In this document: positions 45,605-63,473 of the stretch, piece by piece
Layout of the letters: each line of letters starts with the position of its first letter
Numbering within the stretch: the first letter of the stretch is position 1
NCBI RefSeq assembly: GCF_038967635.1
Contig: NZ_CP152413.1
Location: 6,452,001-6,516,000 of the forward strand
Length of the DNA: 64,000 nt
Source: Bradyrhizobium sp. B124
Lineage (GTDB): Bacteria; Pseudomonadota; Alphaproteobacteria; Rhizobiales; Xanthobacteraceae
Direction: 5' to 3'
Position numbers and translations under genes: made by a program
The notes under the pieces: model-generated
The model's input: only the letters and a program-made list of their open reading frames with translations
What the model was told of the DNA's origin: nothing
The model's database searches: none

Positions 45605-46153
45605 CTAGCCGCCATTGCCGCCGATCACGGCGCGCACGGTGTTGTCGGGGCCGAAATCCTCGGCGCTGTCGACATAGAGCAGCGCGGAGAGCTTCGATCG
45701 CGCGCGGTTGACGCGGCTCTTGATGGTGCCGACCGCACAGCCGCAGATCGCCGCGGCATCCTCGTAGGAGAAGCCGGAGGCACCAACCAGGATCAACGCC
45801 TCGCGCTGGTCCTGCGGCAGCTTTTCGAGCGCCGCGCGGAATTCCTCGAACTCCAGATGCGCCGTCTGCGACGGCTGGCTCTTCAGGGTCTTGGCATAAT
45901 TGCCCTCGGCATCCTCCACCTCGCGCCGCCGCTTCCGGTAGTCGGAGCGAAACAGGTTGCGCAGGATCGTGAACAACCACGCGGGCAGGTTCGAGCCGGG
46001 CTGGAACGAGTCGATATTGGCTATCGCGCGCAGCAGGGTCTCCTGCACCAGATCGTCGGCACGGTCACCATTACCGGACAGCGAGATCGCGAACGCGCGC
46101 AGGCTCGGGACCGACGCCAGGATGTCGTCGCGAAGTTCATTGGTGAGAGGCAT
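45605..46153 (-). CDS. ecfG: General-stress ECF sigma factor EcfG
   Basis: 182 residues, normal for ECF sigma factors. Sigma region 2 (LRAFAISLSGNGDRADDLVQETLLRAIANIDSFQPGSNLPAWLFTILRNLF) and region 4 (LPQDQREALILVGASGFSYEDAAAICGCAVGTIKSRVNRAR) are complete and typical of EcfG. It directs RNA polymerase to GGAAC-N16/17-CGTT promoters under stress once NepR is removed. Its ATG overlaps the nepR TAA by one base. Several matching promoters lie in the last 10 kb of the window. Confidence 0.96.
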   Translation of the reverse strand: MPLTNELRDDILASVPSLRAFAISLSGNGDRADDLVQETLLRAIANIDSFQPGSNLPAWLFTILRNLFRSDYRKRRREVEDAEGNYAKTLKSQPSQTAHLEFEEFRAALEKLPQDQREALILVGASGFSYEDAAAICGCAVGTIKSRVNRARSKLSALLYVDSAEDFGPDNTVRAVIGGNGG

Positions 46154-46356
46154 TAGTCCCCTCCATTGTTCTTGTCAGTATCGCCCCCGGCCACAGCCGC
46201 CGCGGCAGCCTCGGGTCCGTCGAGTTTGCGGATCAGCTCCGCAAAGCGGTCGGGCACCCCCTGCCGCACCACGTCGTCGTACATGGCGCGAAGCTGGTGG
46301 CCGATTCTCGATTGAATCTCGGCGTTGAGACCGCCCTGCTTCTTTACTTCCTTCAT
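46153..46356 (-). CDS. nepR: Anti-sigma factor NepR
   Basis: 67 residues from ATG 46356; a GTG at 46368 would add 4. The two-helix NepR core is visible: NAEIQSRIGHQLRAMYDDVV and PDRFAELIRKLD, followed by an Ala/Gly/Asp tail. NepR holds EcfG inactive until phosphorylated PhyR binds it. It is co-transcribed with ecfG and faces phyR across a 266-bp gap. Confidence 0.93.
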   Translation of the reverse strand: MKEVKKQGGLNAEIQSRIGHQLRAMYDDVVRQGVPDRFAELIRKLDGPEAAAAAVAGGDTDKNNGGD

Positions 46357-46452
46357 GATGTGATCCACGCTTCCCCGGGAGTGAAGTCTCTGATTTTCAA
46401 GTCGATTCCTCGAAAAAAGAGGCTGGCCGCGTTGCCTCGTCGGTCAGGAGCT

Positions 46453-46477
46453 AATGCAAAGTTGCGCAGAAAGTTCC
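46453..46477 (-). promoter_or_regulatory. Candidate EcfG promoter of nepR-ecfG
   Basis: On the minus strand: GGAAC (46477-46473), 16-bp spacer, CATT. One base differs from the CGTT consensus. Autoregulation of this operon by EcfG is known in related bacteria and fits the position about 100 bp upstream of nepR. Confidence 0.45.
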
Positions 46478-46498: not shown

Positions 46499-46523
46499 GG
46501 AACTTTTTCGGCGCTCGCGCGTA
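46499..46523 (+). promoter_or_regulatory. Candidate EcfG promoter of phyR
   Basis: GGAAC (46499-46503), 16-bp spacer, CGTA, one base from consensus, about 100 bp upstream of phyR. A second GGAAC at 46486 lacks a matching -10. Confidence 0.45.
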
Positions 46524-46622: not shown

Positions 46623-47435
46623 ATGTCCCGATCACAGATCGTTGCCGAACATCTTCCGCTGCTGCGCCGTTATGCGCGCGCACTGACCGGAAACCAGGCG
46701 TCCGGGGACGCCTATGTCGGGGCCATGCTCGAGGCCCTGTTGCAGGACGGATCATTGCTGGACCAGAGCCACGGTCCGCGCGCCGGCCTGTTTCGGCTGT
46801 TCACCCAGATCTGGAATTCGGTGTCGGTGAACAACAACGACAATGCCGACGTGGCGACGCTCTCGCTGCCGCCGGAGCGCCGGCTCTCCAACATCACGCC
46901 GCTGCCTCGGCAGGCCTTCCTGCTGCTTTCGCTGGAAGGCTTCTCGGAGGAGGAGGTCGGCTACATTCTCGGCACCGATATTGCCGAGACGCGCAAGCTG
47001 ACCGATGCCGCCGGCCGCGAGATGGCCGCCGAGATCGCCACCGATGTCCTGATCATCGAGGACGAGACCTTCATCGCCATGGACCTCGAGAGCCTGGTGA
47101 AGAATCTTGGCCACAACGTCATCGGCGTCGCGCGCACCCATTCCGATGCGGTGGCGCTCGCGAAGAACAAGAAGCCCGGCCTGATCCTCGCCGACATCCA
47201 GCTCGCCGACGGCTCGTCGGGCCTCGATGCGGTGAACGAGCTGCTGCGCACGTTCGAGGTGCCGGTGGTGTTCATCACGGCCTATCCCGAGCGCTTCCTG
47301 ACCGGCGAACGGCCGGAGCCGGCGTTCCTGATCTCGAAGCCGTTCCAGCCGGCAATGGTGTCGGCGGTGGCGAGCCAGGCGCTGTTCTTCCAGCGCAACT
47401 CGCGCAACCGCACGCCGCGCGCGGCGTCGGCATGA
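46623..47435 (+). CDS. phyR: General-stress response regulator PhyR
   Basis: 270 residues. The N-terminal half (about 1-130) mimics an ECF sigma factor (HLPLLRRYARALTGNQASGDAYV, LPRQAFLLLSLEGFSEEEVGYILGTD). The C-terminal half is a receiver domain with acidic pocket IIEDE, phospho-acceptor Asp in LADIQLADG near residue 190, and the Lys of ISKPFQ near 240. When phosphorylated it draws NepR away from EcfG. It is divergent from nepR-ecfG and ends at a strong terminator. Confidence 0.96.
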   Translation: MSRSQIVAEHLPLLRRYARALTGNQASGDAYVGAMLEALLQDGSLLDQSHGPRAGLFRLFTQIWNSVSVNNNDNADVATLSLPPERRLSNITPLPRQAFLLLSLEGFSEEEVGYILGTDIAETRKLTDAAGREMAAEIATDVLIIEDETFIAMDLESLVKNLGHNVIGVARTHSDAVALAKNKKPGLILADIQLADGSSGLDAVNELLRTFEVPVVFITAYPERFLTGERPEPAFLISKPFQPAMVSAVASQALFFQRNSRNRTPRAASA

Positions 47436-47497: not shown

Positions 47498-47602
47498 TTT
47501 GAGAAGAATCGATGCGTGGCGGAGATCGACCAGGTCGCACGCTTAGGAACCGAGATTGTCGGAACGAGTTTATTTCGTTGTTCGGGCTTGGGCGGATCCG
47601 TT

Positions 47603-50600
47603 GTGTCGATATTTAGAACCCCTGCTATTTCGCGTGGCGAGGCCATCGAACGTCTTTTCATCGGCAGCAGCGAGCTCGCCGGATTGCTCCGGCATCTGGA
47701 CTGGGCAGGCACATCGTTAGGCCCGCCCGAGGCATGGCCGGATAGCCTCAAAACCGCGGTGCGCATCATGCTCACCTCGCAGCAGCCGATCTGGATCGGT
47801 TGGGGCGACGAACTGACCTTCCTCTACAACGATCCGTACAAATCGATCATCGGTGGCAAGCATCCGCGCGCGCTCGGCGAGCCGACCCGCGTGGTCTGGC
47901 GCGAGATCTGGGATGACATTTCGCCGCTCCTCAACAAGGCGATGGGTGGGAGCGAGGGCACCTATGTCGAGGCCCAATTGCTGATCATGGAGCGCAACGG
48001 TTTCCCCGAAGAGACCTACTACACGTTCTCCTACAGCCCGATTCCCGATGCCGACGGTCTGCCCGCCGGAATCTTCTGCGCCAACACTGACGACACGCAG
48101 CGTGTGATCAGCGAACGCCAGCTCTCGCTCTTGCGCGAGCTTGCCAGCCGCGCGGCTGAGGCGCGAAGCGTCGGCGAGGCTTGCGAACGCAGCGCCGCGG
48201 CGCTTGCGACCGATCCTCAGGATTTGCCATTTGCGATGATCTATCTGATCGATTCGCAGGAGCAGGTTGCACGGCTGGCCGCAACCAGCGGCATTGATAG
48301 GCATCATATCGGGGTGAAGTCGCAGCTGGCGCTCGACGGCAGCGAAGTGTGGCCGATCGCCGAGGCGCATGCGGGCCGTGACGGCGCGCTAGTGCAGAAC
48401 TTGAAAAGCCTGTTCGGTCTCGATTTTCCATCCGGTGGCTGGCGTCAGGCGCCGGGGCAGGCCGTCGTCCTTCCGGTACTTGCTGCCGGTGATGCAGTTG
48501 CCGGCTTCCTGATCGCAGGCCTCAATCCATTCCGCCTCTACGACGAACGCTACACGAGCTTCCTCGGATTAGTATCGGCGCAGATCGCCGCCGCAATCAA
48601 CAATGCCCAGGCCTACGAGGAGGAGCGCCGCCGCGCCGAGGCGCTGGCCGAGATCGATCGCGCCAAGACCACCTTCTTCTCTAATGTCAGTCACGAATTC
48701 CGCACGCCGCTCACCTTGATGCTGAGCCCGCTGGAAGAACTGCTGTCCGAGGGGGCGGGCCACCTGCTTCCCGCGCAGCGCTCGCTGGCCGACATCGCTC
48801 ACCGCAACGGACAGCGCTTGTTGAAGCTGGTCAACACTTTGCTTGATTTCGCGCGAATTGAGGCAGGCCGCGTTACCGCCAGCTTCGAGCCCGTCGACCT
48901 CGCAGGGCTGACGTCCGATCTCGCCTCGAACTTCCGCTCGGCGATCGAAAAGGCGGGCATGCGACTTGCAATCAGGAAAGAGCCACTGCCGGACCTCGTC
49001 TATGTCGATCGTGACATGTGGGAGAAGATCGTCCTCAATCTGCTGTCGAACGCGTTCAAGTTCACGTTCGACGGCGAGATCGCGGTCGCGGTCAAGGCGA
49101 CGCCCGAGGGTGCCGAAGTCACCGTGAGCGATACGGGGACCGGCATTCCCGCATCGGCGCTGTCGCATGTGTTCGAGCGTTTCGAACGCGTCGAGAGCGC
49201 GCGCGGCCGCTCCTTTGAGGGCAGCGGCATCGGCTTGGCGCTGGTCCGTGAGTTGGTGAAGCAGCATGGCGGCCAAATTCGGGTCGAAAGCGAGGTCGAT
49301 CGCGGCACCTCGTTCACCATCATGCTTCCGTTCGGGACGGATCATCTCCCCGCCGATCAGGTCAACACGACTGCGCCGGCGCCTCGGAGCAGCGCCCGTG
49401 CCCAGGCCTATCTCGACGAGGCGCTCGGATGGCTGGACGGGAGCGGCGCCGCCGACCGGCCTGATCCATCTTCGCCGGAGGATCTCGGCGTCGCCGCGCC
49501 GACCGCCTCCGGACGCCGGCAGCGCATTCTGCTTGCGGACGACAATGCCGACATGCGCGAATATGTGCGGCGGCTGCTCGAGCCGTTTTACGATGTCGAG
49601 GCGGTCGAGGACGGAAGAGCCGCGCTGGAGGCGGCATGGCGACGTCGCCCCGATCTTGTGCTGAGCGACATCATGATGCCGCGGCTCGACGGCATCAGCC
49701 TTCTCAATGCGCTTCGCGCGGACAAGGACATGAGGGGTTTGCCCGTCATTTTCCTGTCGGCGCGCGCCGGTGAAGAGGCCAAGGTCGAAGGCCTGCAAAT
49801 CGGCGCCGATGACTATCTCGTCAAGCCGTTCAGCGCGCGCGAGCTGCTTGCGCGTGTTGCCGCCAATCTTGAGCTGTCGGCTACGCGGTCGGAGCGGGCG
49901 GTGCGCCTTGAAGAAGAGGCCCATGTGCTCGAGCTCTTGAACAAGGTAGGCAGCACGGTTGCGGGCGAACTCAATCTCGATCGCGCGGTTCAGATCGTCA
50001 CCGATGCGGCGACCGAATTGACCGGCGCAGCGTTTGGCTCGTTCTTCTACAATGTGATCAACGACAGGGGCGAGAGCTACATGCTCTATACCCTGTCCGG
50101 AGCGCCGCGCGAGGCGTTCTCCCGGTTTCCGATGCCGCGCAACACGGCGGTGTTCGCGCCGACCTTCAGCGGCGAGGCGATCGTGCGGTCCGACGATATC
50201 CTGAATGATCCGCGCTACGGCAAGAACGACCCGCATTACGGGATGCCGCAAGGGCATCTGCCGGTGCGCAGTTATCTTGCTGCGCCCGTGGTGTCGCGTT
50301 CCGGCGAAGTACTGGGAGGTCTGTTTTTCGGTCATCCGGAGCCTGGCATTTTCGGCGAGCGTGCAGAGCGGCTGCTTGCCGGCATTGCCGCGCAGGCCGC
50401 AACCGCGATCGACACTGCGCGGCTGTTTCAGGCCGCCGAGCGCGAGGTCTCCGAGCGGCGCCGTGCCGAAGCCGCATTGCAGACCCTCAACACCACCCTG
50501 GAGCAGCGGGTCGTGGAAGAGGTTCAGGAGCGCACCAAGGCCGAAGAGCAGTTGCGCCAGATCCAGAAGATGGAAGCCGTAGGCCAGCTGACCGGCGGCA

Positions 50601-51694
50601 TCGCCCACGACTTCAACAACATGCTGGCCGTGATCCTCGCGGGCCTCAATCTGATCCAGCGCAAGCTTGCCAAGGGGGAAAACGACGTCGGGCGATTCGT
50701 CGAAGCCGCCGTCGACGGCGCGCAGCGCGCCGCGGGCCTGACCCAGCGCCTGCTTGCGTTCTCCCGTCAGCAGCCGCTTGCGCCGGTGACGCTCGATGGC
50801 AACAAGATGATCTCCGGCATGGCCGACCTGTTGGCGCGCACGCTTGGCGAGACCATCAGTTTCGAGACCGTGCTGACAGCAGGGCTGTGGCGGGTTCGCG
50901 CCGACCCCGGCCAGCTCGAAAACGCTATCCTCAACCTCTGCGTCAATGGCCGCGACGCGATGCCGGGCGGCGGCAAGCTCACGCTGGAGACCGCCAACGC
51001 CTATGTCGATGAGGCCGCGGCGAGGGCGTATGCGATTCCGCCAGGTCAATACGTGATGACAGCGGTTGCCGATAACGGCAGCGGCATGAGCCAGGAGGTC
51101 ATCACCAAGGCATTCGACCCGTTCTTCACCACCAAGGGCGTCGGGAAGGGCACCGGTCTCGGGCTCAGCCAGGTCTATGGCTTCGTGCGCCAGTCCGGTG
51201 GCCACGTGAAGATCTACTCGGAGGTCGGGGTCGGCACGACCGTCAAGATCTACCTGCCGCGGCACCGTGGCGATGACGGTCCAGATCCTGTCAGGCGCGC
51301 ACCGATCGCCTCGTATCGCGGACAGAAGGACGAGGTCATTTTGGTGGTCGAGGATGAGGATCGCGTGCGTAGTCTCTCAGTCGAGGCGCTGCGCGAACTC
51401 GGTTACACCGTGGTCGACGCGGCCAGTCCTCGCGAAGCCTTGCGACTGCTGGACGACGGGCTTTCGGTGGCTTTGCTTTTCACCGACGTGGTTATGCCCA
51501 GCATGTCCGGCCACGAGCTCGCCGTGCGGGCGCGAGAACGAATTCCAAGCCTCAAGTTGCTTTACACCACCGGCTACACCCGCAACGCCATCGTCCACAA
51601 CGGGATCCTCGATCCCGGCACCAACCTCCTGCCGAAGCCGTTCTCGATCGATGAACTGGCGACCAAGGTTCGCGAGGTCCTTGACGGGATCTAG
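47603..51694 (+). CDS. Double hybrid sensor kinase (PAS-GAF-HK-REC-GAF-HK-REC)
   Basis: 1,363 residues from GTG 47603; a GTG at 47516 would add 29, but a weak EcfG-like element (GGAAC-N16-AGTT, 47546-47570) lies between, favouring the shorter form. No membrane helix is seen. Order: PAS-like sensor, GAF, HisKA with SHEFRTPLT (His near 364) and its ATPase domain, receiver with LSDIMMP (Asp near 689), a second GAF, a coiled coil (RRRAEAALQTLNTTLEQRVVEEVQERTKAEEQ), a second kinase module with GGIAHDFNNMLAVI near 1000, and a final receiver with FTDVVMP. Its place after phyR suggests a stress-signalling role, which is inference. Confidence 0.9.
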   Translation: MSIFRTPAISRGEAIERLFIGSSELAGLLRHLDWAGTSLGPPEAWPDSLKTAVRIMLTSQQPIWIGWGDELTFLYNDPYKSIIGGKHPRALGEPTRVVWREIWDDISPLLNKAMGGSEGTYVEAQLLIMERNGFPEETYYTFSYSPIPDADGLPAGIFCANTDDTQRVISERQLSLLRELASRAAEARSVGEACERSAAALATDPQDLPFAMIYLIDSQEQVARLAATSGIDRHHIGVKSQLALDGSEVWPIAEAHAGRDGALVQNLKSLFGLDFPSGGWRQAPGQAVVLPVLAAGDAVAGFLIAGLNPFRLYDERYTSFLGLVSAQIAAAINNAQAYEEERRRAEALAEIDRAKTTFFSNVSHEFRTPLTLMLSPLEELLSEGAGHLLPAQRSLADIAHRNGQRLLKLVNTLLDFARIEAGRVTASFEPVDLAGLTSDLASNFRSAIEKAGMRLAIRKEPLPDLVYVDRDMWEKIVLNLLSNAFKFTFDGEIAVAVKATPEGAEVTVSDTGTGIPASALSHVFERFERVESARGRSFEGSGIGLALVRELVKQHGGQIRVESEVDRGTSFTIMLPFGTDHLPADQVNTTAPAPRSSARAQAYLDEALGWLDGSGAADRPDPSSPEDLGVAAPTASGRRQRILLADDNADMREYVRRLLEPFYDVEAVEDGRAALEAAWRRRPDLVLSDIMMPRLDGISLLNALRADKDMRGLPVIFLSARAGEEAKVEGLQIGADDYLVKPFSARELLARVAANLELSATRSERAVRLEEEAHVLELLNKVGSTVAGELNLDRAVQIVTDAATELTGAAFGSFFYNVINDRGESYMLYTLSGAPREAFSRFPMPRNTAVFAPTFSGEAIVRSDDILNDPRYGKNDPHYGMPQGHLPVRSYLAAPVVSRSGEVLGGLFFGHPEPGIFGERAERLLAGIAAQAATAIDTARLFQAAEREVSERRRAEAALQTLNTTLEQRVVEEVQERTKAEEQLRQIQKMEAVGQLTGGIAHDFNNMLAVILAGLNLIQRKLAKGENDVGRFVEAAVDGAQRAAGLTQRLLAFSRQQPLAPVTLDGNKMISGMADLLARTLGETISFETVLTAGLWRVRADPGQLENAILNLCVNGRDAMPGGGKLTLETANAYVDEAAARAYAIPPGQYVMTAVADNGSGMSQEVITKAFDPFFTTKGVGKGTGLGLSQVYGFVRQSGGHVKIYSEVGVGTTVKIYLPRHRGDDGPDPVRRAPIASYRGQKDEVILVVEDEDRVRSLSVEALRELGYTVVDAASPREALRLLDDGLSVALLFTDVVMPSMSGHELAVRARERIPSLKLLYTTGYTRNAIVHNGILDPGTNLLPKPFSIDELATKVREVLDGI

Positions 51695-54852: not shown

Positions 54853-54877
54853 GGAACCGACGTTCACGCGACGCGTT
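54853..54877 (+). promoter_or_regulatory. EcfG promoter, perfect consensus (46-residue gene)
   Basis: GGAAC (54853-54857), 16-bp spacer, CGTT (54874-54877). The start of the small gene at 54900 is 22 bp past the -10 box, with the ribosome-binding site between. Confidence 0.8.
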
Positions 54878-54899
54878 CTCCTGAAAAGGGAGCTTGGCC

Positions 54900-55040
54900 A
54901 TGCGCAAGGCGATCGCGCGGCTTGATGCGGAGCAGAAGGCGCAGCTGCTTTATCTCGCAGATCTCGGTACGGCGATGTTCACGTCGGCGCTTGTGGTCTG
55001 CACCCTGAAAGCGGTCGTGGACCTCTTCGTCGCCGGCTGA
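54900..55040 (+). CDS. Small membrane-associated protein, 46 residues
   Basis: The ATG has an AAAGGGAG site about 8 bp upstream and a perfect EcfG promoter before that. The product opens with a charged helix (MRKAIARLDAEQKAQLLYLAD) and closes with a hydrophobic stretch (TAMFTSALVVCTLKAVVDLFVAG), one likely membrane helix. No family is recognised. The promoter argues that it is a real stress-induced gene. Confidence 0.7.
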   Translation: MRKAIARLDAEQKAQLLYLADLGTAMFTSALVVCTLKAVVDLFVAG

Positions 55041-55066
55041 ACCGTCGCATCAGCGCCAACGCGCCA

Positions 55067-55306
55067 TCACTCCTGCGGCGCGTCTCCTTGGGTGTGCCCA
55101 TCCGGCCCCCGGTTAAACACCCCATACTCGCTCGACTTCACCCCGGCCCCTCCATCGACGCCGTTGCCGGCAAGACCGAGCCTGAGCAGCTCGCGCACTG
55201 CCGCGGCACGGGTCGGCATGCGGTGCCTGAAGCGGAAATCGTCGAGAGCCGATAATTCGTCGGGGGAAAGCATGACTTGAAGACGTTCAGCGCGAAGCTC
55301 ATTCAT
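55067..55306 (-). CDS. Small ribbon-helix-helix-like protein
   Basis: 79 residues. Residues 5-46 (RAERLQVMLSPDELSALDDFRFRHRMPTRAAAVRELLRLGL) fit a ribbon-helix-helix DNA-binding fold: a short strand, then two helices, with the PTRAAAVRELLR pattern common in such proteins. The tail is polar and likely disordered. A perfect EcfG promoter lies 40-64 bp upstream. It may be a small stress-linked transcription regulator. Confidence 0.78.
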   Translation of the reverse strand: MNELRAERLQVMLSPDELSALDDFRFRHRMPTRAAAVRELLRLGLAGNGVDGGAGVKSSEYGVFNRGPDGHTQGDAPQE

Positions 55307-55345
55307 CGCAAATCGCCCAGAATTAGTTAATTGAGTATTTTGCTA

Positions 55346-55370
55346 AACGAACCAATTCGCGGTGGGTTCC
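55346..55370 (-). promoter_or_regulatory. EcfG promoter, perfect consensus (RHH gene)
   Basis: On the minus strand: GGAAC (55370-55366), 16-bp spacer, CGTT (55349-55346). The RHH-like start codon is 40 bp beyond the -10 box. Confidence 0.8.
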
Positions 55371-55441
55371 GCACCTTGAGATAAAAACGTCGATTGAGTA
55401 AGTTAATCAAGCAAAATCAATAGCTTAGAAGAAAAATCAAG

Positions 55442-55466
55442 GGAACGATCCGGCTGCCTCTCCGTT
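55442..55466 (+). promoter_or_regulatory. EcfG promoter, perfect consensus (58- and 65-residue genes)
   Basis: GGAAC (55442-55446), 16-bp spacer, CGTT (55463-55466). The next ATG (55486) is 20 bp downstream, behind GGCGGGAG. Confidence 0.82.
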
Positions 55467-55485
55467 GTCTGGCGGGAGTGACGCC

Positions 55486-55662
55486 ATGACCAATCACGTC
55501 AAGCTGCCCCGCAAGCTATCCGAGGAGCCGGAAGCGCCGGAACCGCGGCGCCCGAGCCACGCACGGGTGATCGATCAACTGGACCGCTGGGCCAATAGTC
55601 CCGGTCTGCAACCGCCAACGGTGAGTGATGCAGAAGACGATTCGGAAGCGGAAGCGATCTGA
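55486..55662 (+). CDS. Small acidic hypothetical protein, 58 residues
   Basis: The ATG sits behind a GGCGGGAG site and a perfect EcfG promoter. The product is Pro/Glu-rich (KLPRKLSEEPEAPEPRRPSHARVIDQLDRWANSPG) with an acidic C-terminus (SDAEDDSEAEAI), probably mostly disordered. It overlaps the next small gene by 35 bp. No family is recognised. Confidence 0.7.
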   Translation: MTNHVKLPRKLSEEPEAPEPRRPSHARVIDQLDRWANSPGLQPPTVSDAEDDSEAEAI

Positions 55663-55822
55663 ACCCCACACCTTCGAGCAGCGGCTCGAAGAGCATCGCG
55701 TGCGGCTCGAGCGCCAGCTCGCGGAATTGCCGCGCGGCGCCAAGCGCGAGCAGATTGCCGCGCGCATCGAGCAGCTGCGGACCGCCCTCGAGTTGAACAC
55801 GATGCTGTCGATGAGCGAGTGA
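55628..55822 (+). CDS. Small basic helical protein, 64 residues
   Basis: Starts at ATG 55628 (a GTG lies just before) inside the 3' end of the preceding gene. The product is one long charged helix: basic leader MQKTIRKRKRSEPHTFEQRLEEHRVRLERQLAELP, then REQIAARIEQLRTALELN, with heptad-like Leu spacing. It is likely co-transcribed from the EcfG promoter at 55442. Unknown function. Confidence 0.68.
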   Translation: MQKTIRKRKRSEPHTFEQRLEEHRVRLERQLAELPRGAKREQIAARIEQLRTALELNTMLSMSE

Positions 55823-56012
55823 GCCAACACCGGCGCGGGACGCCCACTTGCTCCCGCTGCTCCGTTTGCCTACCATCCCTGCGTTGATGGGGATGGAGTC
55901 CCCCGATAACCGCCGCAAGGCTGATGACTCCTACCGGGCGCGACAGCGTCGGTAGGAGCATGCGCCACCGCCGATCCGCAGCGCGCGCCCCGCGAATGAG
56001 AAGGGGCAGAGC

Positions 56013-56294
56013 ATGACGGGTCTTCCTGGTTCACTCTCAATCGCATTGTCGCTGGTCGGGTCGATCTGGCTCGTTGGTGTCGTCGCCCTGCTGGTCGGCG
56101 CCCCGGGCGAGCTGGTCGCCGCGACCTTTGTTGTTGGGCTTGTGACAGGCGTCGCCGAGTGGCGCGGCATGATCCGGAAAAGTGGATGCCGGTTTTCCCA
56201 GCGACAAACGCGAAGCGTTTGCGCGGAGATCATGCCCAAACTTGAAGCAGAGCACGATGACAGGTCATCGTGCTCCGGAAAGGCAGAATCTTGA
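56013..56294 (+). CDS. Small membrane protein with repeat-encoded C-terminus
   Basis: 93 residues behind an AGAAGGGG site. Residues 7-45 hold two hydrophobic helices (LSIALSLVGSIWLVGVVALLVG and ELVAATFVVGLVTGVAEW). From about residue 52 the sequence is hydrophilic and is entirely the translation of a palindromic repeat (56166-56278), so the native C-terminus was probably lost. Its end overlaps the crcB start region. Unknown function. Confidence 0.6.
   Translation: MTGLPGSLSIALSLVGSIWLVGVVALLVGAPGELVAATFVVGLVTGVAEWRGMIRKSGCRFSQRQTRSVCAEIMPKLEAEHDDRSSCSGKAES
56166..56278. repeat. Type F dispersed palindromic repeat
   Basis: The outer block GCATGATCCGG...GATCATGC encloses AAACGCGAAGCGTTT; a second hairpin AGCACGATGACAGGTCATCG closes with TGCTCCGG. 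It has the architecture of the GATCCGGAAAAGTGG repeats frequent in Bradyrhizobium. It forms the 3' coding end of the 56013 gene and borders crcB. Confidence 0.82.
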
Positions 56295-56677
56295 ACGTTC
56301 AGTTGTTGGCGGCGGTCGCGATCGGCGGTTCGCTGGGATCGGTCGCACGCTATCTGGTGGCGATCGGCGCGGGGCGCCTGGTCGGCACCGATTTTCCATG
56401 GGGCACGCTGGTGATCAATATCGTGGGCTCGTTCCTGATCGGCGTCTTCGCGGAGTCCTTTGCGCTGAGCTGGAATGTCAGCCAGGCGGTGCGGGTGTTT
56501 CTCACCGTCGGCATCTGCGGCGGCTTCACCACCTTCTCGACCTTCTCGCTCGATGCGATCGTGCTGATGCAGCGGGGCGAGCTATGGCCGGCCGCTGCCT
56601 ACGTCGCGGCCTCCGTTGCGCTCTCGATCCTCGCGCTGTTCGCCGGCCTGCTGCTGGTGCGGGCGTTCGCGGCTTGA
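56291..56677 (+). CDS. crcB: Fluoride channel CrcB/FluC
   Basis: 128 residues from a TTG start; a GTG at 56270, within the repeat, would add 7. Four membrane helices and the family motifs are present: GGSLGSVARYLV, the Asn-containing FPWGTLVINIVGSFLIG, and GICGGFTTFSTFS with the Phe/Thr track. It expels fluoride from the cytoplasm as a dual-topology dimer. No crcB riboswitch was recognised upstream, where the repeat lies. Confidence 0.93.
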   Translation: MNVQLLAAVAIGGSLGSVARYLVAIGAGRLVGTDFPWGTLVINIVGSFLIGVFAESFALSWNVSQAVRVFLTVGICGGFTTFSTFSLDAIVLMQRGELWPAAAYVAASVALSILALFAGLLLVRAFAA

Positions 56678-56848
56678 TCGCTTGAATGGCGGCCGGTGTG
56701 CGGGCTCGTCGTCCGGTTCGTGCGGGCGCCGTTCCAAAAAAGTGAAGGGCTGGAGGTATCGTCTGCCGCCGGAATCCTTGGCGCGCCCGGGGCCAGCCGG
56801 TAGGATGGAACCCGGATTGTGGTCAGGGATCAAGGGAAAGACTGGGGA

Positions 56849-57070
56849 ATGAAGCATGTCGACGTCGCGGTGATTGCTGCCACGCTGTGGCTGCTGGCGT
56901 CGATGGTGCTGGACATCCTGACGCCGAAGTCGATCACCGCACTGATGATCGCCGCCGCGCTCGCGCCACCGTTCCTGATCGGGATCGGCATCCATTTCGC
57001 ACGCGAATATTTCAAGGCGAAGCGGCGCAGCTACCGGCCGCCGCAATGGGACGAACGCTTCAGGAACTAA
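56849..57070 (+). CDS. Small two-helix membrane protein, 73 residues
   Basis: The ATG follows AAGGGAAAGACTGGGGA. Two hydrophobic stretches (VAVIAATLWLLASMVLDIL and ALMIAAALAPPFLIGIGIHF) are followed by a basic cytoplasmic-type tail (AREYFKAKRRSYRPPQWDERFRN). No family is recognised. It is on the same strand as crcB but 171 bp away. Confidence 0.65.
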   Translation: MKHVDVAVIAATLWLLASMVLDILTPKSITALMIAAALAPPFLIGIGIHFAREYFKAKRRSYRPPQWDERFRN

Positions 57071-57141
57071 GCGGGGCAGGACTGCAAGAAGGGCTGCATC
57101 GGCCGCATTGAACTGCGCACATGGCTTGCTAAGCTTGCGCC

Positions 57142-57822
57142 ATGACCGAGCATCTCCCCGATACGATCAGCCGCCTCTACACCGTAGCAGGCGAATATGT
57201 CGACAGCGACCATCCCGCCGTCGAGGCGTTCGCCCGCGCTGCCGTCCCCGCCGACGCCGGCGCCCGCGACATAGCGAGCCGGCTCTACACCGCGGTGCGC
57301 GACGGCATCCGCTACAACCCCTATGTCAGCATGCGTTCGCCCGAGAGCTACCGGGCCTCCAGCGTGCTCGCCGCCGGCAATGGCTACTGCGTCGGCAAGG
57401 CGGCGCTCTATGCCGCGGCCTGCCGGGTCAACGGCATCCCGGCCCGGCTCGGCTTCGCCGACGTCCGCAACCATCTCACCACCGAGAAGCTGCGCCAGAG
57501 CATGGGCTCGGACCTGTTCACCTGGCACGGCTTCACCGAAGTGTTCGTCGACGGCGCCTGGCGCAAGGCGACCCCGACCTTCAACGACACGCTGTGCGCC
57601 AAGCTCGGCGTCCAGCCGCTCGATTTCGACGGCCATTCAGATGCGCTGCTGCACCCCTTCGACGGCGCAGGGCGCGCCTACATGCAATATGTCAACGACC
57701 ACGGCACCTATCACGACGTCCCCGCCAAATTCCTGATGCGCGAGATGGCGCGCGAATACGCCAACATGCAGGGCGAGGACATGTCCGGCCGCGACATGGA
57801 ACGCGAGGCGGCGGAGCAATAG
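57142..57822 (+). CDS. Transglutaminase-like (papain-fold) protein
   Basis: 226 residues. The catalytic triad fits transglutaminase-like proteases: Cys in GNGYCVGKAALYAAACRVNGIPAR near residue 94, His in TWHGFTEVFVDGAWRKATPTFND near 134, then Asp of that stretch. No signal peptide, so cytoplasmic. It may be a peptidase or amidase; the substrate is unknown. Neighbours give no clue. Confidence 0.9.
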   Translation: MTEHLPDTISRLYTVAGEYVDSDHPAVEAFARAAVPADAGARDIASRLYTAVRDGIRYNPYVSMRSPESYRASSVLAAGNGYCVGKAALYAAACRVNGIPARLGFADVRNHLTTEKLRQSMGSDLFTWHGFTEVFVDGAWRKATPTFNDTLCAKLGVQPLDFDGHSDALLHPFDGAGRAYMQYVNDHGTYHDVPAKFLMREMAREYANMQGEDMSGRDMEREAAEQ

Positions 57823-57899
57823 CGCGGGCGTGCCGCGGCAAGCGGCGCGCTGACGGAAGCCGTCCTGGGTGAACGTGCGCAGGCTGAAGGGGCGGTGTC

Positions 57900-58826
57900 A
57901 TGGATGCGGAACTGCCGAAAGGGTCAGTGAGCCGCCCGGTCACGGGCTGGGAGGACGCGGTCGCGCTGACCGGATTCATCCTGGTCGCGGTCGGGCAGGC
58001 CTCCAATCAGGTGCTGGCGCGCGGCCTGGCCGGCTCGGTGCCGCCGTTCTCGCTGGCCTTCTTCCGCTGGAGCATCATCGCCATCGGCCTCGCGCCGTTT
58101 GCGATCGCGGCCGTGAGGGATGGCAAGATCCCGCTGGCGCAGAATTTCTGGCCGATCCTCGCCGCGGGCTTCCTCGGCATGTTCCTGTGCGGCGGCCCGG
58201 TCTACATCGCCGGCATCACCACCACCGCGATCCATATCGCACTGATCTTCGCGCTGTCACCGATCATGGTGCTGTTGATTTCAGCCGCGCTCGGCATCGA
58301 GCATATCGGTCCGCTGCAATGGCTGGGCACGGCGCTGGCGCTCGCCGGCGCGCTTTTGATCGTCTCGGGCGGCCATCTGGAAACGCTGATGCAATCGAGC
58401 GCGGCCTGGGGCGATCTCCTGGTGGTGTGCGCGATGCTCGGCTGGTCCGGCTACACGCTGGTGCAATCGCGCGTCGCGCCGCGCGCCTCGCTGCTGGCGC
58501 GGGTCAGCCTGTTCTCGGCGGCCGGCGCGCTGTGCTCGCTGCCGCCGGCGCTCCAGGAAATGTGGGCCACGCCGGCTGCGGTCTTCAACGCCCGGGCGTT
58601 CGAGGCCTATGTGTTCGCCGGTCTCGTGCCGGGCCTGATCGCCTATGCCGGCTTCGCCTGGCTCGGCGCACGGTTCGGGTCGGTGCGGACGTCGCTCGTG
58701 CTCTATGTCGCGCCGATCGCGAGCGCACTGTTGTCCTGGATCATCCTTGGCGAGCCGCCGAAGCTGATCCACCTGGTTGGCGGCTTGCTGATCCTCGGCG
58801 GCGTCTGGGCGAGCCTGCGCAAATAG
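57900..58826 (+). CDS. EamA/DMT-family transporter 2
   Basis: 308 residues with ten hydrophobic segments in two EamA repeats (ILVAVGQASNQVLARGLAGSVPPFSLAFFRW; later LLVVCAMLGWSGYTLVQSRVAP). The typical closing motif is YVAPIASALLSWIILGEPPKLIHLVGGLLILGGVW. It exports a small metabolite from the inner membrane; substrate unknown. It differs clearly from the first DMT gene at 53958. Confidence 0.9.
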   Translation: MDAELPKGSVSRPVTGWEDAVALTGFILVAVGQASNQVLARGLAGSVPPFSLAFFRWSIIAIGLAPFAIAAVRDGKIPLAQNFWPILAAGFLGMFLCGGPVYIAGITTTAIHIALIFALSPIMVLLISAALGIEHIGPLQWLGTALALAGALLIVSGGHLETLMQSSAAWGDLLVVCAMLGWSGYTLVQSRVAPRASLLARVSLFSAAGALCSLPPALQEMWATPAAVFNARAFEAYVFAGLVPGLIAYAGFAWLGARFGSVRTSLVLYVAPIASALLSWIILGEPPKLIHLVGGLLILGGVWASLRK

Positions 58827-58845
58827 ATCCAGCTCCTTCCGGGGT

Positions 58846-58870
58846 GCAACCTTTTCCAGCCTCGTGCGTT
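58846..58870 (+). promoter_or_regulatory. Probable EcfG promoter (59-residue gene), one mismatch
   Basis: GCAAC (58846-58850), 16-bp spacer, CGTT (58867-58870), one base from GGAAC at -35. It is 38 bp before the start at 58909. Confidence 0.55.
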
Positions 58871-58908
58871 GAATCCAGCGTTGATTCAAGAACTTAGTTG
58901 GAGGTCGT

Positions 58909-59088
58909 ATGAATCTTACTCCCCAGCAGCGCAAGGTTCGTAGCGAGCAGCGTCAGCAAGACGCATCGCAGGCGATGAAGGAGCACCTCGCCCACGAGAA
59001 GGCGTTCTACAACAACTTCCACCGCCTCAAGGCCGAGCGGCAGGCGCGTGAAGCCGCGGAATCACGGAAGCCATCCGCTGCAAAATAA
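58909..59088 (+). CDS. Small charged helical protein, 59 residues
   Basis: The ATG has a very strong GGAGGT site 4 bp upstream. The product (NLTPQQRKVRSEQRQQDASQ, then AMKEHLAHEKAFYNNFHRLKAERQAREAAE) is almost wholly charged helix with no membrane segment or Cys. No family is recognised. An EcfG-like promoter precedes it. Confidence 0.75.
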   Translation: MNLTPQQRKVRSEQRQQDASQAMKEHLAHEKAFYNNFHRLKAERQAREAAESRKPSAAK

Positions 59089-59222
59089 GCGCAGTGAGCC
59101 ACATCCATCGTCCGGATTGCACGGATCTGACAGACCGAGAAGGAGCCGAAGCGAGGGGGGCGGGCGCAAGCGAGTTCGCCCGAATGACGCGATGAAATCT
59201 CCAGGCTTATGGAGGACGTCAG

Positions 59223-59396
59223 ATGTATTTTGCCGATAAGAAAACGGTCACTTGCAAATGCGGCGAGCCCTTGAGCGAATTGATGCTCGTCGACGACCAG
59301 ACGACTGGAATCAAGTTTCACGTCGGTCGTTGCCTGTCCTGCCGTGAAGTGACGGTCGTTCGATCCCAGGACATGCCATCAAACGATAGTGCCTGA
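59223..59396 (+). CDS. Small putative zinc-ribbon protein, 57 residues
   Basis: The ATG follows a TGGAGG site. The product has two Cys pairs, CKCGEP near residue 12 and CLSCRE near residue 40, spaced as in a zinc ribbon, with a beta-rich middle (LSELMLVDDQTTGIKFHVG). No family is recognised. It lies 134 bp after the preceding small gene. Confidence 0.68.
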   Translation: MYFADKKTVTCKCGEPLSELMLVDDQTTGIKFHVGRCLSCREVTVVRSQDMPSNDSA

Positions 59397-59501
59397 TGCA
59401 GACGGTCCTCTCGCTTGGCGGAAGGACCGCTCCTTCAGCGCCGGGCTTCAATTGCGACGGCTGAGTGACAGGCCGGCTGACGCATCGTTCGCGGCACGGC
59501 C

Positions 59502-59545
59502 GAAAAAAGAGCAGGGCGCGACCGGCATCACCACGGTCGCGCCCT
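59502..59545 (-). terminator. Orphan minus-strand terminator-like hairpin
   Basis: A perfect 12-bp stem (AGGGCGCGACCG / CGGTCGCGCCCT) with a 9-nt loop; read on the minus strand it is followed by GCTCTTTTTT. No annotated minus-strand gene ends here, so it may close an unseen small RNA or act bidirectionally for the plus-strand small genes. Confidence 0.6.
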
Positions 59546-59664
59546 ACGTCGCCGGTCAATGGGGCAGGGGGAATAACCGGCTCTTCCAATGACTCGCAGA
59601 CCCCCGGACTCGTTCCGCGCGAATCAAAATTTTTTCGTACACGGTTAAGTGATGGCTGGACGCG

Positions 59665-59690
59665 AGAACCCCACAGGTTTCGCTCGCGTT
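59665..59690 (+). promoter_or_regulatory. Possible EcfG promoter (exported 131-residue protein), one mismatch
   Basis: AGAAC (59665-59669), 17-bp spacer, CGTT (59687-59690), one base from consensus, 48 bp before the chosen ATG. Confidence 0.45.
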
Positions 59691-59738
59691 GTGTCCGTGA
59701 TCGCCAACGGGAATTTCCATGGGGCGAGGGACATCACC

Positions 59739-60134
59739 ATGTCAAAGATTCAAAAGGGAATTTTCGCTGCGTTGGCGGCTGGATTGACGCTGGGCGCGGT
59801 CCAGCTGGCGTCCGGCCACGATCTCATTGGCGGACAGCAGGTCACCACCCAATTGGCGCCGGAGAGCGCGGTCAATCGCGCCGCCAAGACCGACCGTGCC
59901 GCGGTTCCGATGACCGGCTTGCCGAGCCGGACCGTCGCGCTGAGGGTTGATCGGCTTCCCGATACGTCGGTCCTGGTCCGTGTTCCCGTGGCGCGGGAAG
60001 AGGCCCGCAATCACCCCCTCGCAGCGCCGGCGCGTGCGCGGCCCGGCGACACCCGTAAGGTGGCCTGCGAGCCCGTGGTCAGCGTCCTGACCGAAGTGGC
60101 CAAGCTGCTGCAGCCCGGCCGCTGCGTGACCTGA
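59739..60134 (+). CDS. Exported hypothetical protein, 131 residues
   Basis: Start at ATG 59739 with GCGAGGG upstream. A signal peptide (MSKIQKGIFAALAAGLTLGA) is followed by a polar, Arg/Ala/Pro-rich chain and two late Cys (KVACEPVVSVLTEVAKLLQPGRC) that could form a disulfide. No family is recognised. Likely periplasmic. Confidence 0.7.
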   Translation: MSKIQKGIFAALAAGLTLGAVQLASGHDLIGGQQVTTQLAPESAVNRAAKTDRAAVPMTGLPSRTVALRVDRLPDTSVLVRVPVAREEARNHPLAAPARARPGDTRKVACEPVVSVLTEVAKLLQPGRCVT

Positions 60135-60173
60135 GCAGGGGGCGCGCAGTCGGTCCAATATCGACGGCGTCAC

Positions 60174-60265
60174 CGCCCGGCTTGACCGGGCGATCCAGTA
60201 CGCCGCGGCCATCGGCTCAATCACAATCGTCTCTGGAATACTGGATCGCCCGGTCAAGCCGGGCG
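60174..60265. repeat. Inverted repeat with perfect 27-bp arms (type E)
   Basis: Arms 60174-60200 and 60239-60265 are exact inverses (beginning CGCCCGGCTTGACCGGGCGA), separated by 38 bp. Each arm itself contains a small CCCGG palindrome. It lies between the convergent exported-protein and holin-like genes and could end both transcripts. Confidence 0.9.
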
Positions 60266-60309
60266 ATGACATCGTTGGTTGCGGTTTGCACCTTGCCGGG
60301 CAACGCAGG

Positions 60310-60762
60310 CTATTCCGCTTCGTCCGGCTCGCTGCTGCTGCCAGCGGCGCTGCGGCTTGCCATCAGGCCGAGCGCGAGGCCGCCGACCGCCAGGATCGGG
60401 ATCAGCCGCTTCACGCCGATGGCTCGCACGATCTGCAGGCCGGTGGCGATCAGTGCGGGGTCGGCGAGCATTGTCGCCGCGGCCGATTTCGCAGCCCTGG
60501 CCGCTTTCTCCGCGCGGAGGCGCATCTCTCGCTTGCGCGCCATGTAAACGGCAATCGCGATCAGCGTGACGACGAGGAACACCGCGGCGCCGGACAGGCA
60601 CGCTTCCACCGGACCATAGTGCTGCAGCACATAGACGAAGGCGGCGGCGCACAGGAACGCGATGGTGATGAACAACGCGATCGCGGCGGCGGCCGCGAGC
60701 GAGGTCAGCCGCAGCGCGCTGCCGGTGGACTGCTTGACGTCATCGATCAGCCGCTGAAGCAT
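60310..60762 (-). CDS. Phage-holin-3_6-like (actinobacterial-type holin superfamily) membrane protein
   Basis: 150 residues from the Met at 60762; a longer frame would add 20. Two central membrane helices (SLAAAAAIALFITIAFLCAAAFVYVL and ACLSGAAVFLVVTLIAIAVYMA), a basic Ala-rich linker (RKREMRLRAEKAARAAKSAAA), then a C-terminal hydrophobic segment. This is the layout of the bacterial holin-like family usually found beside DUF883 genes and linked to envelope stress; it is not phage derived here. It probably shares the DUF883 promoter. Confidence 0.75.
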   Translation of the reverse strand: MLQRLIDDVKQSTGSALRLTSLAAAAAIALFITIAFLCAAAFVYVLQHYGPVEACLSGAAVFLVVTLIAIAVYMARKREMRLRAEKAARAAKSAAATMLADPALIATGLQIVRAIGVKRLIPILAVGGLALGLMASRSAAGSSSEPDEAE

Positions 60763-60880
60763 TGACCAGCCTTGTCCTGTAAAGCCCTGCTTTGAGCCTT
60801 GCCTTGAAAAGCGCGTCGACAAACGAGGCGGCGACGCGCCAGCGCTGCCATCGCGTCCAGAACGGTGGTTTGCGCATGAC

Positions 60881-61252
60881 CTAGCGCCGCCAAGTGACGC
60901 CGATCAAAAAGCCGAGGCCGAGCGCAAGGCCGACGGTCGCCAGCGGCCGCTGCGTGATCACCTCTTCCAGCGATTCCTCGATCGAGGATGCCGCATCCTG
61001 CGCCGCGCCCATCATCGCGCTGCCGCGCTCCGACATGTCGTCGAGCGTCGATTCCGCGTTGGCGCGCACATCCTTGTAGCGGCGGCGGGCCTGCTTGCCT
61101 GCGTTGTTGGCAAACGAGTTGAGCGCGTCGGTGATCTGTTCGGTGAGGGCTGCAATATCGTTCTTCACGGCAGTGACATCCTTTTCGAGGCGTTCGTAGG
61201 TCGCTTTGTCCGTCATGTTCTTGATCCCAAATGTGCTGTCCGTGCTCGACAT
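60881..61252 (-). CDS. DUF883-family (ElaB/YqjD-like) membrane-anchored protein
   Basis: 123 residues. A long amphipathic helical region (YERLEKDVTAVKNDIAALTEQITDALNSF onward) ends in a C-terminal membrane anchor (PLATVGLALGLGFLIGVTWRR), as in ElaB/YqjD proteins that tether ribosomes at the membrane in stationary phase. The ATG at 61252 has a GGGAG site; a longer frame is excluded because it would begin upstream of the perfect EcfG promoter's start point. Confidence 0.88.
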   Translation of the reverse strand: MSSTDSTFGIKNMTDKATYERLEKDVTAVKNDIAALTEQITDALNSFANNAGKQARRRYKDVRANAESTLDDMSERGSAMMGAAQDAASSIEESLEEVITQRPLATVGLALGLGFLIGVTWRR

Positions 61253-61287
61253 CGAAAGCTCCCGGAGAACGTGCCTGTTCGGAGAAA

Positions 61288-61312
61288 AACGCTTCGCACC
61301 TCGCAAGGTTCC
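61288..61312 (-). promoter_or_regulatory. EcfG promoter, perfect consensus (DUF883 gene)
   Basis: On the minus strand: GGAAC (61312-61308), 16-bp spacer, CGTT (61291-61288), 36 bp before the DUF883 start. It lies within 20 bp of the 3' end of the upstream AI-2E gene. Confidence 0.82.
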
Positions 61313-61328
61313 AGATGCGAAAGCGAGG

Positions 61329-62417
61329 TTAGTCCTCGGGCAGCTGCGGCGAATTGACCGGCATCAAATGCTCCTTGACGATCAACGCCACGATCAGCAG
61401 CGGCGACGACAGGAAGGCGCCCATCGGGCCCCACAGCCAGGTCCAGAATGCGAGCGCGAGAAAAACCGCGAGCGCATTCAGCGACAGCCTGCGGCCGACG
61501 ATCGTCGGCGTCACGAAATGCCCTTCCATGAAGGTCACGACGGCAAAACACGCCGGCGCGAGCAGCCCGGCGCCGATGGTCGGCGAGGTGATGATGCCGA
61601 CCACAACCAGCACCACGAACATCGCGACCGGCCCGATGATCGGAATAAAGTTCAGCGTCGCGGCGAGCGCGCCGAGCCCCGCCGGGTTCGGCATTCCCGT
61701 CGCCGCGCAGATCGCACCGGTGACGATGCCGATGCCGACATTGATCATCGTCACCGTCAGCAGATAATTGCCGAGATTGGTCTCGACCTCGTTGAGGATA
61801 CGCAGCGTGCGCAATCGTGCCGCGCGGTCGCTGAAGGTCATCACCAGCCCGCGGCGCAGATCCTTCCAGCTTGCGATGAACAGGATCAGGGTCGCGATGA
61901 ACAGCAGGAATTCGGCGAAGGTCGGCGACACGAATTCCAGCGTCGGCTGCACCCATTCGAATTTCGGCAGCTGGAGGTTGGCGAGCGTGTCGGGGGCGCC
62001 GACCATGCTCTGCAGCTCCCGCCACAGCGCAAGCGGCCGGTCGAACACATGCAGCTTCTCCTTCAGGATCGCGCCGAGCTCGGGCAGCCGCGAGCTCCAT
62101 TCCATGACAGGCGAGGCGATCAGTCCGACCATGAAGGCGACGGCGGCGCCGACCGCGACCACGATCAGCATGGCGCCGAGCGCGCGCGGGATCCGGTAGC
62201 GCTCGAGCAGGCTCGCCGCCGGCGACAGCATGGTGCCGACGATGAAGGCCATGGTGATCGGAAGGAAGAAGGCCCGTGCGAGATAGAGCACCCCGACGAT
62301 GACGATCACCAGCAGTGCGACCAGCGCGAAGGCGACGGCCTCGGCGCGGCTGATCATCGGCGGCGTTTCGGCTTTGCTGTCGGGGAGGGGCGTGCCTTCG
62401 GGCGCGTTGCCAAGCAT
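61329..62417 (-). CDS. AI-2E family (PerM/TqsA-like) membrane protein
   Basis: 362 residues from ATG 62417; a TTG at 62465 would add 16. About eight hydrophobic segments in the family pattern, with the central soluble region (about 125-200) and the C-terminal family stretches LNFIPIIGPVAMFVVLVVVGI and LALAFWTWLWGPMGAFLSSPLLIVALIVKEHL. Members export small molecules or act as Na/H antiporters; AI-2 itself is not implied. A perfect EcfG promoter lies upstream. Confidence 0.9.
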   Translation of the reverse strand: MLGNAPEGTPLPDSKAETPPMISRAEAVAFALVALLVIVIVGVLYLARAFFLPITMAFIVGTMLSPAASLLERYRIPRALGAMLIVVAVGAAVAFMVGLIASPVMEWSSRLPELGAILKEKLHVFDRPLALWRELQSMVGAPDTLANLQLPKFEWVQPTLEFVSPTFAEFLLFIATLILFIASWKDLRRGLVMTFSDRAARLRTLRILNEVETNLGNYLLTVTMINVGIGIVTGAICAATGMPNPAGLGALAATLNFIPIIGPVAMFVVLVVVGIITSPTIGAGLLAPACFAVVTFMEGHFVTPTIVGRRLSLNALAVFLALAFWTWLWGPMGAFLSSPLLIVALIVKEHLMPVNSPQLPED

Positions 62418-62493
62418 ACGTTCACCCGGAAAGGCGCGCACCAGACTCCTCCCGAACGGGGACAAATGAATTTCGCGTCAAATTACGCACGAC

Positions 62494-62519
62494 AACGGCC
62501 GTGCCCCGGCAAAGGTTCC
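62494..62519 (-). promoter_or_regulatory. EcfG promoter, perfect consensus (AI-2E family gene)
   Basis: On the minus strand: GGAAC (62519-62515), 17-bp spacer, CGTT (62497-62494), 76 bp before the chosen start. Divergent from the promoter at 62578. Confidence 0.8.
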
Positions 62520-62577
62520 ATCGCGCGCTCGTGAGACGTGGCGGGTTGACAATCGCGGCTTTGCGACGATTCGCAGC

Positions 62578-62603
62578 GGAACTGTCTCACGGCTACGCGC
62601 GTT
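62578..62603 (+). promoter_or_regulatory. EcfG promoter, perfect consensus (L,D-transpeptidase gene)
   Basis: GGAAC (62578-62582), 17-bp spacer, CGTT (62600-62603), 48 bp before the ATG at 62652. Its -35 is 58 bp from the -35 of the divergent AI-2E promoter. Confidence 0.8.
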
Positions 62604-62651: not shown

Positions 62652-63473
62652 ATGACACAGCAGTCTCTCTCCAGCCGCCGGCTTGCGTCGCGCGCCGCGC
62701 GCACCCTCGTCCGCACCTTTGCTTTCGCCAGCGTCCTGCTCGCGACGCCATTCATTGTCGCCAATTCGGCGAGCGCCCAAGTGCGCTCCTCTGCGCTGGG
62801 CTATGCGTCGACGCAGCCGGGCGCATTCCCCTCCGACGAGGTGATGAACGATCCCTCGACCGAGGACGGCGCGCTGCCGGAGCGGCTGCGCCGCGCCACC
62901 GTCGCGCTCAACACGTCGGAGCCGCCCGGCACCGTCATCATCGATACCGGCAACACCGCGCTCTATTACGTGCTCGGCGCTGGCCGGGCGATCCGTTACG
63001 GCGTCGGCGTCGGCCGCGAGGGCTTCACTTGGGCGGGCACCCAGACCATCAGTAACAAGGCGGAATGGCCGGACTGGCATCCGCCGGCCGAGATGATCAA
63101 GCGCCAGCCCTATCTGCCGCGTTTCATGGCCGGCGGCCCGGGTAACCCGCTCGGCGCCCGCGCGATGTATCTCGGCTCCAGCGAGTACCGCATCCACGGC
63201 ACCAACGATCCGTCCACCATCGGCAAGTTCGTGTCGTCGGGCTGCATCCGCCTGACCAACGAGGACGTCACCGACCTGTTCAACCGCGTCAATGTCGGGA
63301 CCAAAGTCGTGGTGCTGCCGAAGAACGGGCCGCATATCGCCGCGCGCGAGCTCGGCCCGAGCACGACGCAGATCTCGGTCCGGCCGGCGCCGATGCAGCC
63401 GCGACCCGCGGTGATGACGCTGCCTTCCGGCCGTCAGGCGTTGAACATCCCGGCGACTTCCTCGTTGTACTGA
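62652..63473 (+). CDS. L,D-transpeptidase (YkuD domain)
   Basis: 273 residues. The signal peptide ends near ANSASAQ. The YkuD domain (about 95-220) carries the catalytic set YRIHGTND and SSGCIRLTNED with the nucleophile Cys near residue 197. It cross-links peptidoglycan by 3-3 bonds or anchors proteins to it in the periplasm. A perfect EcfG promoter precedes it, which fits wall strengthening under stress. A DUF2865 gene follows by 25 bp. Confidence 0.94.
   Translation: MTQQSLSSRRLASRAARTLVRTFAFASVLLATPFIVANSASAQVRSSALGYASTQPGAFPSDEVMNDPSTEDGALPERLRRATVALNTSEPPGTVIIDTGNTALYYVLGAGRAIRYGVGVGREGFTWAGTQTISNKAEWPDWHPPAEMIKRQPYLPRFMAGGPGNPLGARAMYLGSSEYRIHGTNDPSTIGKFVSSGCIRLTNEDVTDLFNRVNVGTKVVVLPKNGPHIAARELGPSTTQISVRPAPMQPRPAVMTLPSGRQALNIPATSSLY

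Follow-up and report, generated by a model that had tools for sequence, protein, structure and literature searches.

Probable EcfG-type general stress promoters clustered before small and envelope genes near the phyR–nepR–ecfG switch of Bradyrhizobium sp. B124

The general stress regulon of Alphaproteobacteria is read by the sigma factor EcfG (ECF15, one of the extracytoplasmic function or ECF factors), which has the promoter consensus GGAAC-N16/17-CGTT, and the PhyR–NepR partner-switch mechanism is established for this class. In a 64-kb stretch of the genome of Bradyrhizobium sp. B124 (bases 6,452,001 to 6,516,000 of one 9.17-Mb contig; the whole stretch is referred to as the window, and positions are counted from its first base), exact copies of this motif stand before small and envelope genes. 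The question is whether these sites are stress promoters and whether their nearness to the switch genes phyR, nepR and ecfG is meaningful. A sequence-only reading of the window had described six such sites as a local cluster and had placed the run of genes around them in the general stress regulon. In this study, the sites were compared with shuffled sequence, with the remainder of the genome and with related loci. The six sites, or seven if one just beyond the window is counted, are very likely genuine promoters read by EcfG.

All six sites were found at the positions and on the strands given by the sequence-only reading (Table 1), and each precedes a start codon and points at it. Between CGTT and the start codon lie 19–76 bp, namely 22, 39 and 19 bp for the sites at 54853, 55346 and 55442, 35 and 48 bp for those at 61288 and 62578, and 76 bp for the site at 62494, or 28 bp if an upstream TTG is taken as the start. 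An additional exact site is located 170 bp beyond the end of the window (window position 64170), 47 bp upstream of the gene for a Thivi_2564 membrane protein. The cluster is uneven, with three sites in 0.6 kb, none in the following 5.8 kb and then four in 2.9 kb, counting the site at 64170. The window contains seven exact matches, compared with a mean of 0.81 and a maximum of four in 100 dinucleotide shuffles, which bears out the claim that six matches are far above chance. Furthermore, a genome-wide scan, which had been suggested as a check for enrichment, identified the seven cluster sites as the densest 10-kb group of exact (fixed-base) matches in the genome (seven of 156 collapsed matches), and 2000 uniform placements never produced a group of more than five. 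The match in the window outside the cluster, at 6350 (+), lies within a 473-residue open reading frame (ORF) called on the opposite strand and looks like a chance occurrence.

Genome-wide, 159 exact matches were found (89 + 70; 156 after collapsing palindromic pairs), compared with 94 for the same boxes at a control spacing of N20–21. In a spaced sample of 49 stretches of 20 kb, chosen at round coordinates, nine exact matches were intergenic and 12 genic according to a crude gene caller, compared with 19 intergenic and 73 genic for seven control spacing pairs summed; the same caller scored two of the seven cluster sites as genic, and another simple caller scored none. Most exact matches elsewhere in the genome are thus indistinguishable from chance, and relying on the exact motif by itself would predict too many EcfG promoters in a genome of this kind. 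Since the motif is mostly background, a match is insufficient on its own and conservation is needed. The sequence-only reading had named matches equally common inside genes as evidence against it; with 12 of 21 sampled matches genic, the argument from the motif alone is partly undermined, and conservation has to be added.

Conservation was assessed in 80 loci around relatives of the AI-2E family transporter gene (the best 80 of 243), in which the exact site was sought up to 250 bp before each gene and the N20–21 spacing served as the control. The exact site precedes the DUF883 gene in 76 of 76 testable loci, a CsbD gene in 34 of 34, the YkuD gene in 71 of 79, the Thivi_2564 gene in 69 of 76 and the AI-2E gene in 56 of 80 (75 of 80 for a relaxed site), and the control spacing was found at most once per gene. 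The named loci with the greatest similarity to the AI-2E gene of the window belong to Bradyrhizobium. One count dropped matches starting after residue 40 or with less than 150 bp upstream, which reduced the DUF883 loci from 77 to 76 and the YkuD loci from 79 to 76; under these stricter limits the YkuD gene has the site in 68 of 76. The gene for a holin-X-like protein that follows DUF883 has an exact site of its own in none of 76 loci within 250 bp upstream, and its position and the lack of such a site suggest that it probably shares an operon with DUF883. When 77 regions upstream of DUF883 were aligned (76 loci and the window), conservation reached at least 95% in both boxes and in one column of the spacer, with variation in most of the surrounding columns. 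Conservation of the boxes is almost as high for YkuD and lower for AI-2E, whose promoter is the most weakly conserved among those of the envelope genes. The signal is also specific for spacing: in the 80 loci taken together, GGAAC-Nk-CGTT was counted 270 times with k = 16 and 92 times with k = 17, compared with two to 31 times with each of 17 other spacings. Of these 362 sites, 234 precede the six window genes, and many of the other 128 precede Thivi_2564 or CsbD genes.

The small genes were compared in the 30 best-scoring loci of the genus as well as in the AI-2E locus set. The exact site precedes sml79 in 24 of 30 genus loci (28 relaxed) and in seven of 12 AI-2E loci (12 relaxed), and sml46, which is present in 13 of the genus loci, has it in 12 of these and in 11 of 13 AI-2E loci. 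Two wider sets were chosen for contig room and spread. The family set consists of 20 genomes out of 93 in which NepR was matched (14 genera, the genus of the window excluded), and the class set of 20 genomes out of 31 others that gave a PhyR match at E ≤ 1e-30 (17 families, other orders; one locus is shorter, at 14,666 bases). An automatic 250-bp test of the family set gave a mixed picture: the exact site precedes DUF883 in 10 of 11 loci, YkuD in seven of eight and CsbD in six of seven, as well as phyR in four of 20, nepR in three of 20 and hyp161 in four of 14. The corresponding counts for the class set were one of three for DUF883, one of four for CsbD, five of 20 for phyR and two of six for nepR.

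The claim that the run of genes belongs to the general stress regulon survives in part. It holds for promoter-like sites before six genes, which are spacing-specific, conserved and placed before genes, but not for the run as a whole. The window contains no exact site between 55466 and 61288; among relatives, no exact upstream site was found for CrcB (0/8), a transglutaminase-like gene (0/11), EamA2 (0/13) or s57 (0/11), and hyp161 and s59 (the 59-residue ORF at 58909) have one in two of 45 and two of 10 loci, respectively. A single stress regulon spanning the whole run was rejected because the genes in the 5.8-kb gap are without exact sites in the window and in nearly all relatives; these genes are probably not regulon members.

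Table 1. Switch genes, site-bearing genes and EcfG-type sites in and beside the window (window coordinates).
Feature	Coordinates	Strand	Remarks
EcfG-type sigma factor	45605..46153	-	Sigma-70 region 2 and 4 domains
NepR anti-sigma factor	46153..46368	-	PF18557, E = 6.1e-16; single copy in genome
Near-consensus site GGAAC-N16-CATT	46453..46477	-	Before nepR–ecfG
Near-consensus site GGAAC-N16-CGTA	46499..46523	+	Before phyR
PhyR anti-anti-sigma response regulator	46623..47435	+	PhyR sigma-like and receiver domains on frame 46497–47435; start read from sequence
Putative EcfG-type promoter of sml46	54853..54877	+	Exact site
sml46	54900..55040	+	46-residue ORF with hydrophobic stretch
sml79	55067..55306	-	79 residues; divergent from sml58
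Putative EcfG-type promoter of sml79	55346..55370	-	Exact site
Putative EcfG-type promoter of sml58	55442..55466	+	Exact site
sml58	55486..55662	+	58-residue ORF; divergent from sml79
One-mismatch site GCAAC-N16-CGTT	58846..58870	+	Upstream of 59-residue ORF at 58909
Holin-X-like membrane protein	60310..60762	-	Downstream of DUF883
DUF883 protein	60881..61252	-	123 residues; PF05957, E = 4.3e-8 on longer frame 60881–61306
Putative EcfG-type promoter of DUF883 gene	61288..61312	-	Exact site
AI-2E family transporter	61329..62417	-	362 residues from this ATG; PF01594, E = 7.4e-37
Putative EcfG-type promoter of AI-2E family transporter gene	62494..62519	-	Exact site
Putative EcfG-type promoter of YkuD gene	62578..62603	+	Exact site
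YkuD-type L,D-transpeptidase	62652..63473	+	273 residues; PF03734, E = 3.3e-24
Thivi_2564 membrane protein	just beyond window end		51 residues; own exact site at window 64170

The stress switch does lie near the cluster, as had been claimed: EcfG, NepR and PhyR are encoded at 45.6–47.4 kb of the window. The seven cluster sites are 8.5 to 17.8 kb from nepR in this genome because further genes intervene. Nineteen genomes of the genus, including that of the window, were compared: DUF883 was found in all 19 and NepR in 18. The two genes share a contig in 11 genomes, where they are 8.8–14.5 kb apart in five (the window's included) and separated by 0.95 Mb or more in six; in seven genomes they are on different contigs. 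Within flanks of about 10 kb, a switch gene is present in 20 of the 80 AI-2E loci and absent from 36; a further 17 are too short to judge, and in the other seven, adjacent P450 and sml79 genes point to a probable linkage further out. In a quickly built single-protein tree of AI-2E, rooted at the midpoint, switch-linked rows are found on either side of the root; 25 of its 78 inner branches are weak, seven of the 28 'linked' rows were assigned by such neighbours and 17 of the 81 rows are unknown.

Nearness of this kind recurs outside the genus. A CsbD, Thivi_2564, YkuD, AI-2E, DUF883 or holin-X-like gene lies beside the switch clearly in 12 of the 20 family loci and weakly in three. At 1–7 kb from the switch, 60 exact sites were observed in the family set compared with 4.1 expected from other spacings (about 15-fold), and 27 compared with 3.2 in the class set (about eightfold), whereas the sites at 7–10 kb (one and two, respectively, compared with 1.2 expected in each set) are at background. 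Related loci are not independent, as a Poisson calculation would assume, and no probability is attached to these counts. In 19 of the 20 family loci at least one exact site occurs at 1–7 kb (three for the control spacing), as it does in 14 of the 20 class loci (two for the control spacing); comparison stretches elsewhere in 19 of the 20 class genomes gave five exact sites in 19 stretches. In the class set, 20 of 49 sites lie within 1 kb of the switch and may belong to the switch itself. The clustering of sites near phyR–nepR–ecfG is thus not peculiar to the genome of the window. In one genus of the family (two loci), the switch region contains eight and five exact sites in 20 kb, although the envelope genes seen in the window were not detected in it.

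The idea that the nearness is an accident of one lineage was dropped, since linked rows fall on both sides of the AI-2E tree root and linkage recurs in other genera. The nearness is meaningful as history: linkage recurs in those genera, is broken in six of the 11 genus genomes that could be judged, and the promoters persist; the close arrangement of envelope genes and switch would then be ancestral. A further possibility, compatible with EcfG promoters, is that closeness is itself functional, for example through concerted dosage or joint inheritance. The halt of site enrichment at about 7 kb in both wider sets and the family loci with the block beside the switch would fit this idea. However, the linkage has been broken by at least 0.95 Mb in those six genomes, and the DUF883 site is kept in 76 of 76 loci even though a switch gene is missing within 10 kb in 36 of the 80 loci, so that a functional role for closeness appears rather unlikely.

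In the favoured explanation, in which the cluster sites are promoters and most likely depend on EcfG, phosphorylated PhyR would bind NepR upon stress and EcfG would be released. Free EcfG would then initiate separately at each site, giving transcripts of sml46, sml79, sml58, DUF883 with the holin-X-like gene, AI-2E, YkuD and Thivi_2564. The envelope genes would form an old core, placed within a few kilobases of the switch in many relatives. Several findings weigh against this explanation. The reversed motif is commoner in the genome than the true motif (200 compared with 159), and because its base steps differ from those of the motif, it was set aside and other spacings were used as the control set. 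The sml58 site is present in only 11 of the 28 genus loci that contain the gene (11 of 12 in the AI-2E locus set), and the third promoter is therefore confined to some relatives; a single site such as this one could be non-functional. In the automatic test of the family set, the exact site precedes AI-2E in none of nine loci and Thivi_2564 in six of 11. Neither phyR nor nepR has an exact site within 250 bp in any of 17 Bradyrhizobium loci. In addition, the genome encodes 16 other ECF-like sigma factors, the closest of which is 37% identical to EcfG.

The last of these points bears on which factor reads the sites. Boxes resembling GGAAC at −35 are widespread among ECF factors, and these are numerous in this genome, so that the sites could be real promoters read wholly or partly by another ECF factor with similar −35 and −10 preferences. 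Exact sites are, however, concentrated within 7 kb of phyR–nepR–ecfG in the family and in other orders, and the motif is therefore tied to the switch; reading by another factor would be surprising, and EcfG is the most likely reader. The reading that nine fixed bases were matched by chance, as could happen in a large genome rich in G+C, draws some support from a genome-wide total near those of the controls (94 and 200) and from the mainly genic sample, but it is scarcely credible, and for the cluster taken together, which is very probably real, the shuffles, the scan statistic with its 2000 placements and the conservation all exclude it.

Near-consensus sites precede both nepR–ecfG and phyR, the genes of the switch itself (Table 1); neither is above chance within a single window, but both recur at similar places in relatives. 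The CATT form precedes nepR in 15 of 17 Bradyrhizobium loci and the CGTA form precedes phyR in 10 of 17. In the 20 family loci, nepR is preceded by CATT in 10, CGTT in three and neither in seven, and phyR by CGTA in 10, CGTC in two, CGTT alone in three and nothing in five. It may tentatively be proposed, as a possibility that is far from assured, that in Alphaproteobacteria the switch and a core of envelope effectors form an old, selected neighbourhood of about 7 kb on each side and that, in the family of the window, suboptimal −10 elements at the switch promoters (CATT for nepR–ecfG and CGTA for phyR) keep feedback weaker than effector output. That off-consensus −10 elements set the strength of the feedback is speculation; their recurrence provides a hint as to how it is set. 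Directly downstream of phyR, at 47516–51694, a 1392-residue hybrid protein is encoded that has GAF domains and two matches each to histidine-kinase and receiver domains; it is a candidate stress sensor.

The locus resembles EcfG (ECF15) systems in having GGAAC-N16/17-CGTT before genes, phyR, nepR and ecfG in the usual divergent arrangement and, in other orders, sites near the switch itself. It differs in that the sites are borne by envelope and small genes grouped near the switch and in that the Bradyrhizobium switch promoters have CATT and CGTA rather than CGTT. The E. coli yqjD–yqjE type of operon consists of a DUF883 gene followed by a gene for a holin-X-like protein, under RpoS. The same order is found here under a probable general stress promoter, but the sigma factor differs, and the window proteins score below curated cut-offs. 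The NCBIfam similarity to ElaB and PRK10132 is weak and below these cut-offs, and the holin-X-like protein of the window scores 17.6 bits against PF07332, for which the curated cut-off is 28.4; seven of 16 aligned orthologues match this profile (E ≤ 0.1; best, 4.7e-7). The outcome is a short list of small and envelope genes that are poorly characterized and preceded by conserved promoters of the stress type. Gene order near the switch may also help in identifying core members of the regulon.

The three small genes gave no match in Pfam or NCBIfam profile searches, and a search with the small-gene region against plasmids found nothing. By eye, sml79, which is present in 121 of 146 genus genomes, may resemble a ribbon-helix-helix regulator. 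Its profile similarity to MazE9 is weak (E = 1.1), and its predicted structure, of low confidence with a predicted local distance difference test (pLDDT) score of 60.5, gave no significant structural match.

Exact sites are also concentrated elsewhere on the contig. The densest 100-kb region of the genome is at 3618086–3721232, with 20 collapsed (21 raw) exact sites in 103 kb. These are spacing-specific (15 at k = 16 and six at k = 17, compared with none to three at other spacings), and 10 or eight of the 21 lie outside genes according to two crude callers. The G+C content is lower, at about 0.60, and small genes are again among those preceded by sites; genes starting 24–34 bp after sites include those for DUF892, PRC-barrel and DUF3618 proteins and a DAO–Rieske oxidoreductase. 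The region is probably a stress-gene island. Smaller groups consist of three sites within 1 kb at 796089–797051 and a divergent pair at 7273890–7273999.

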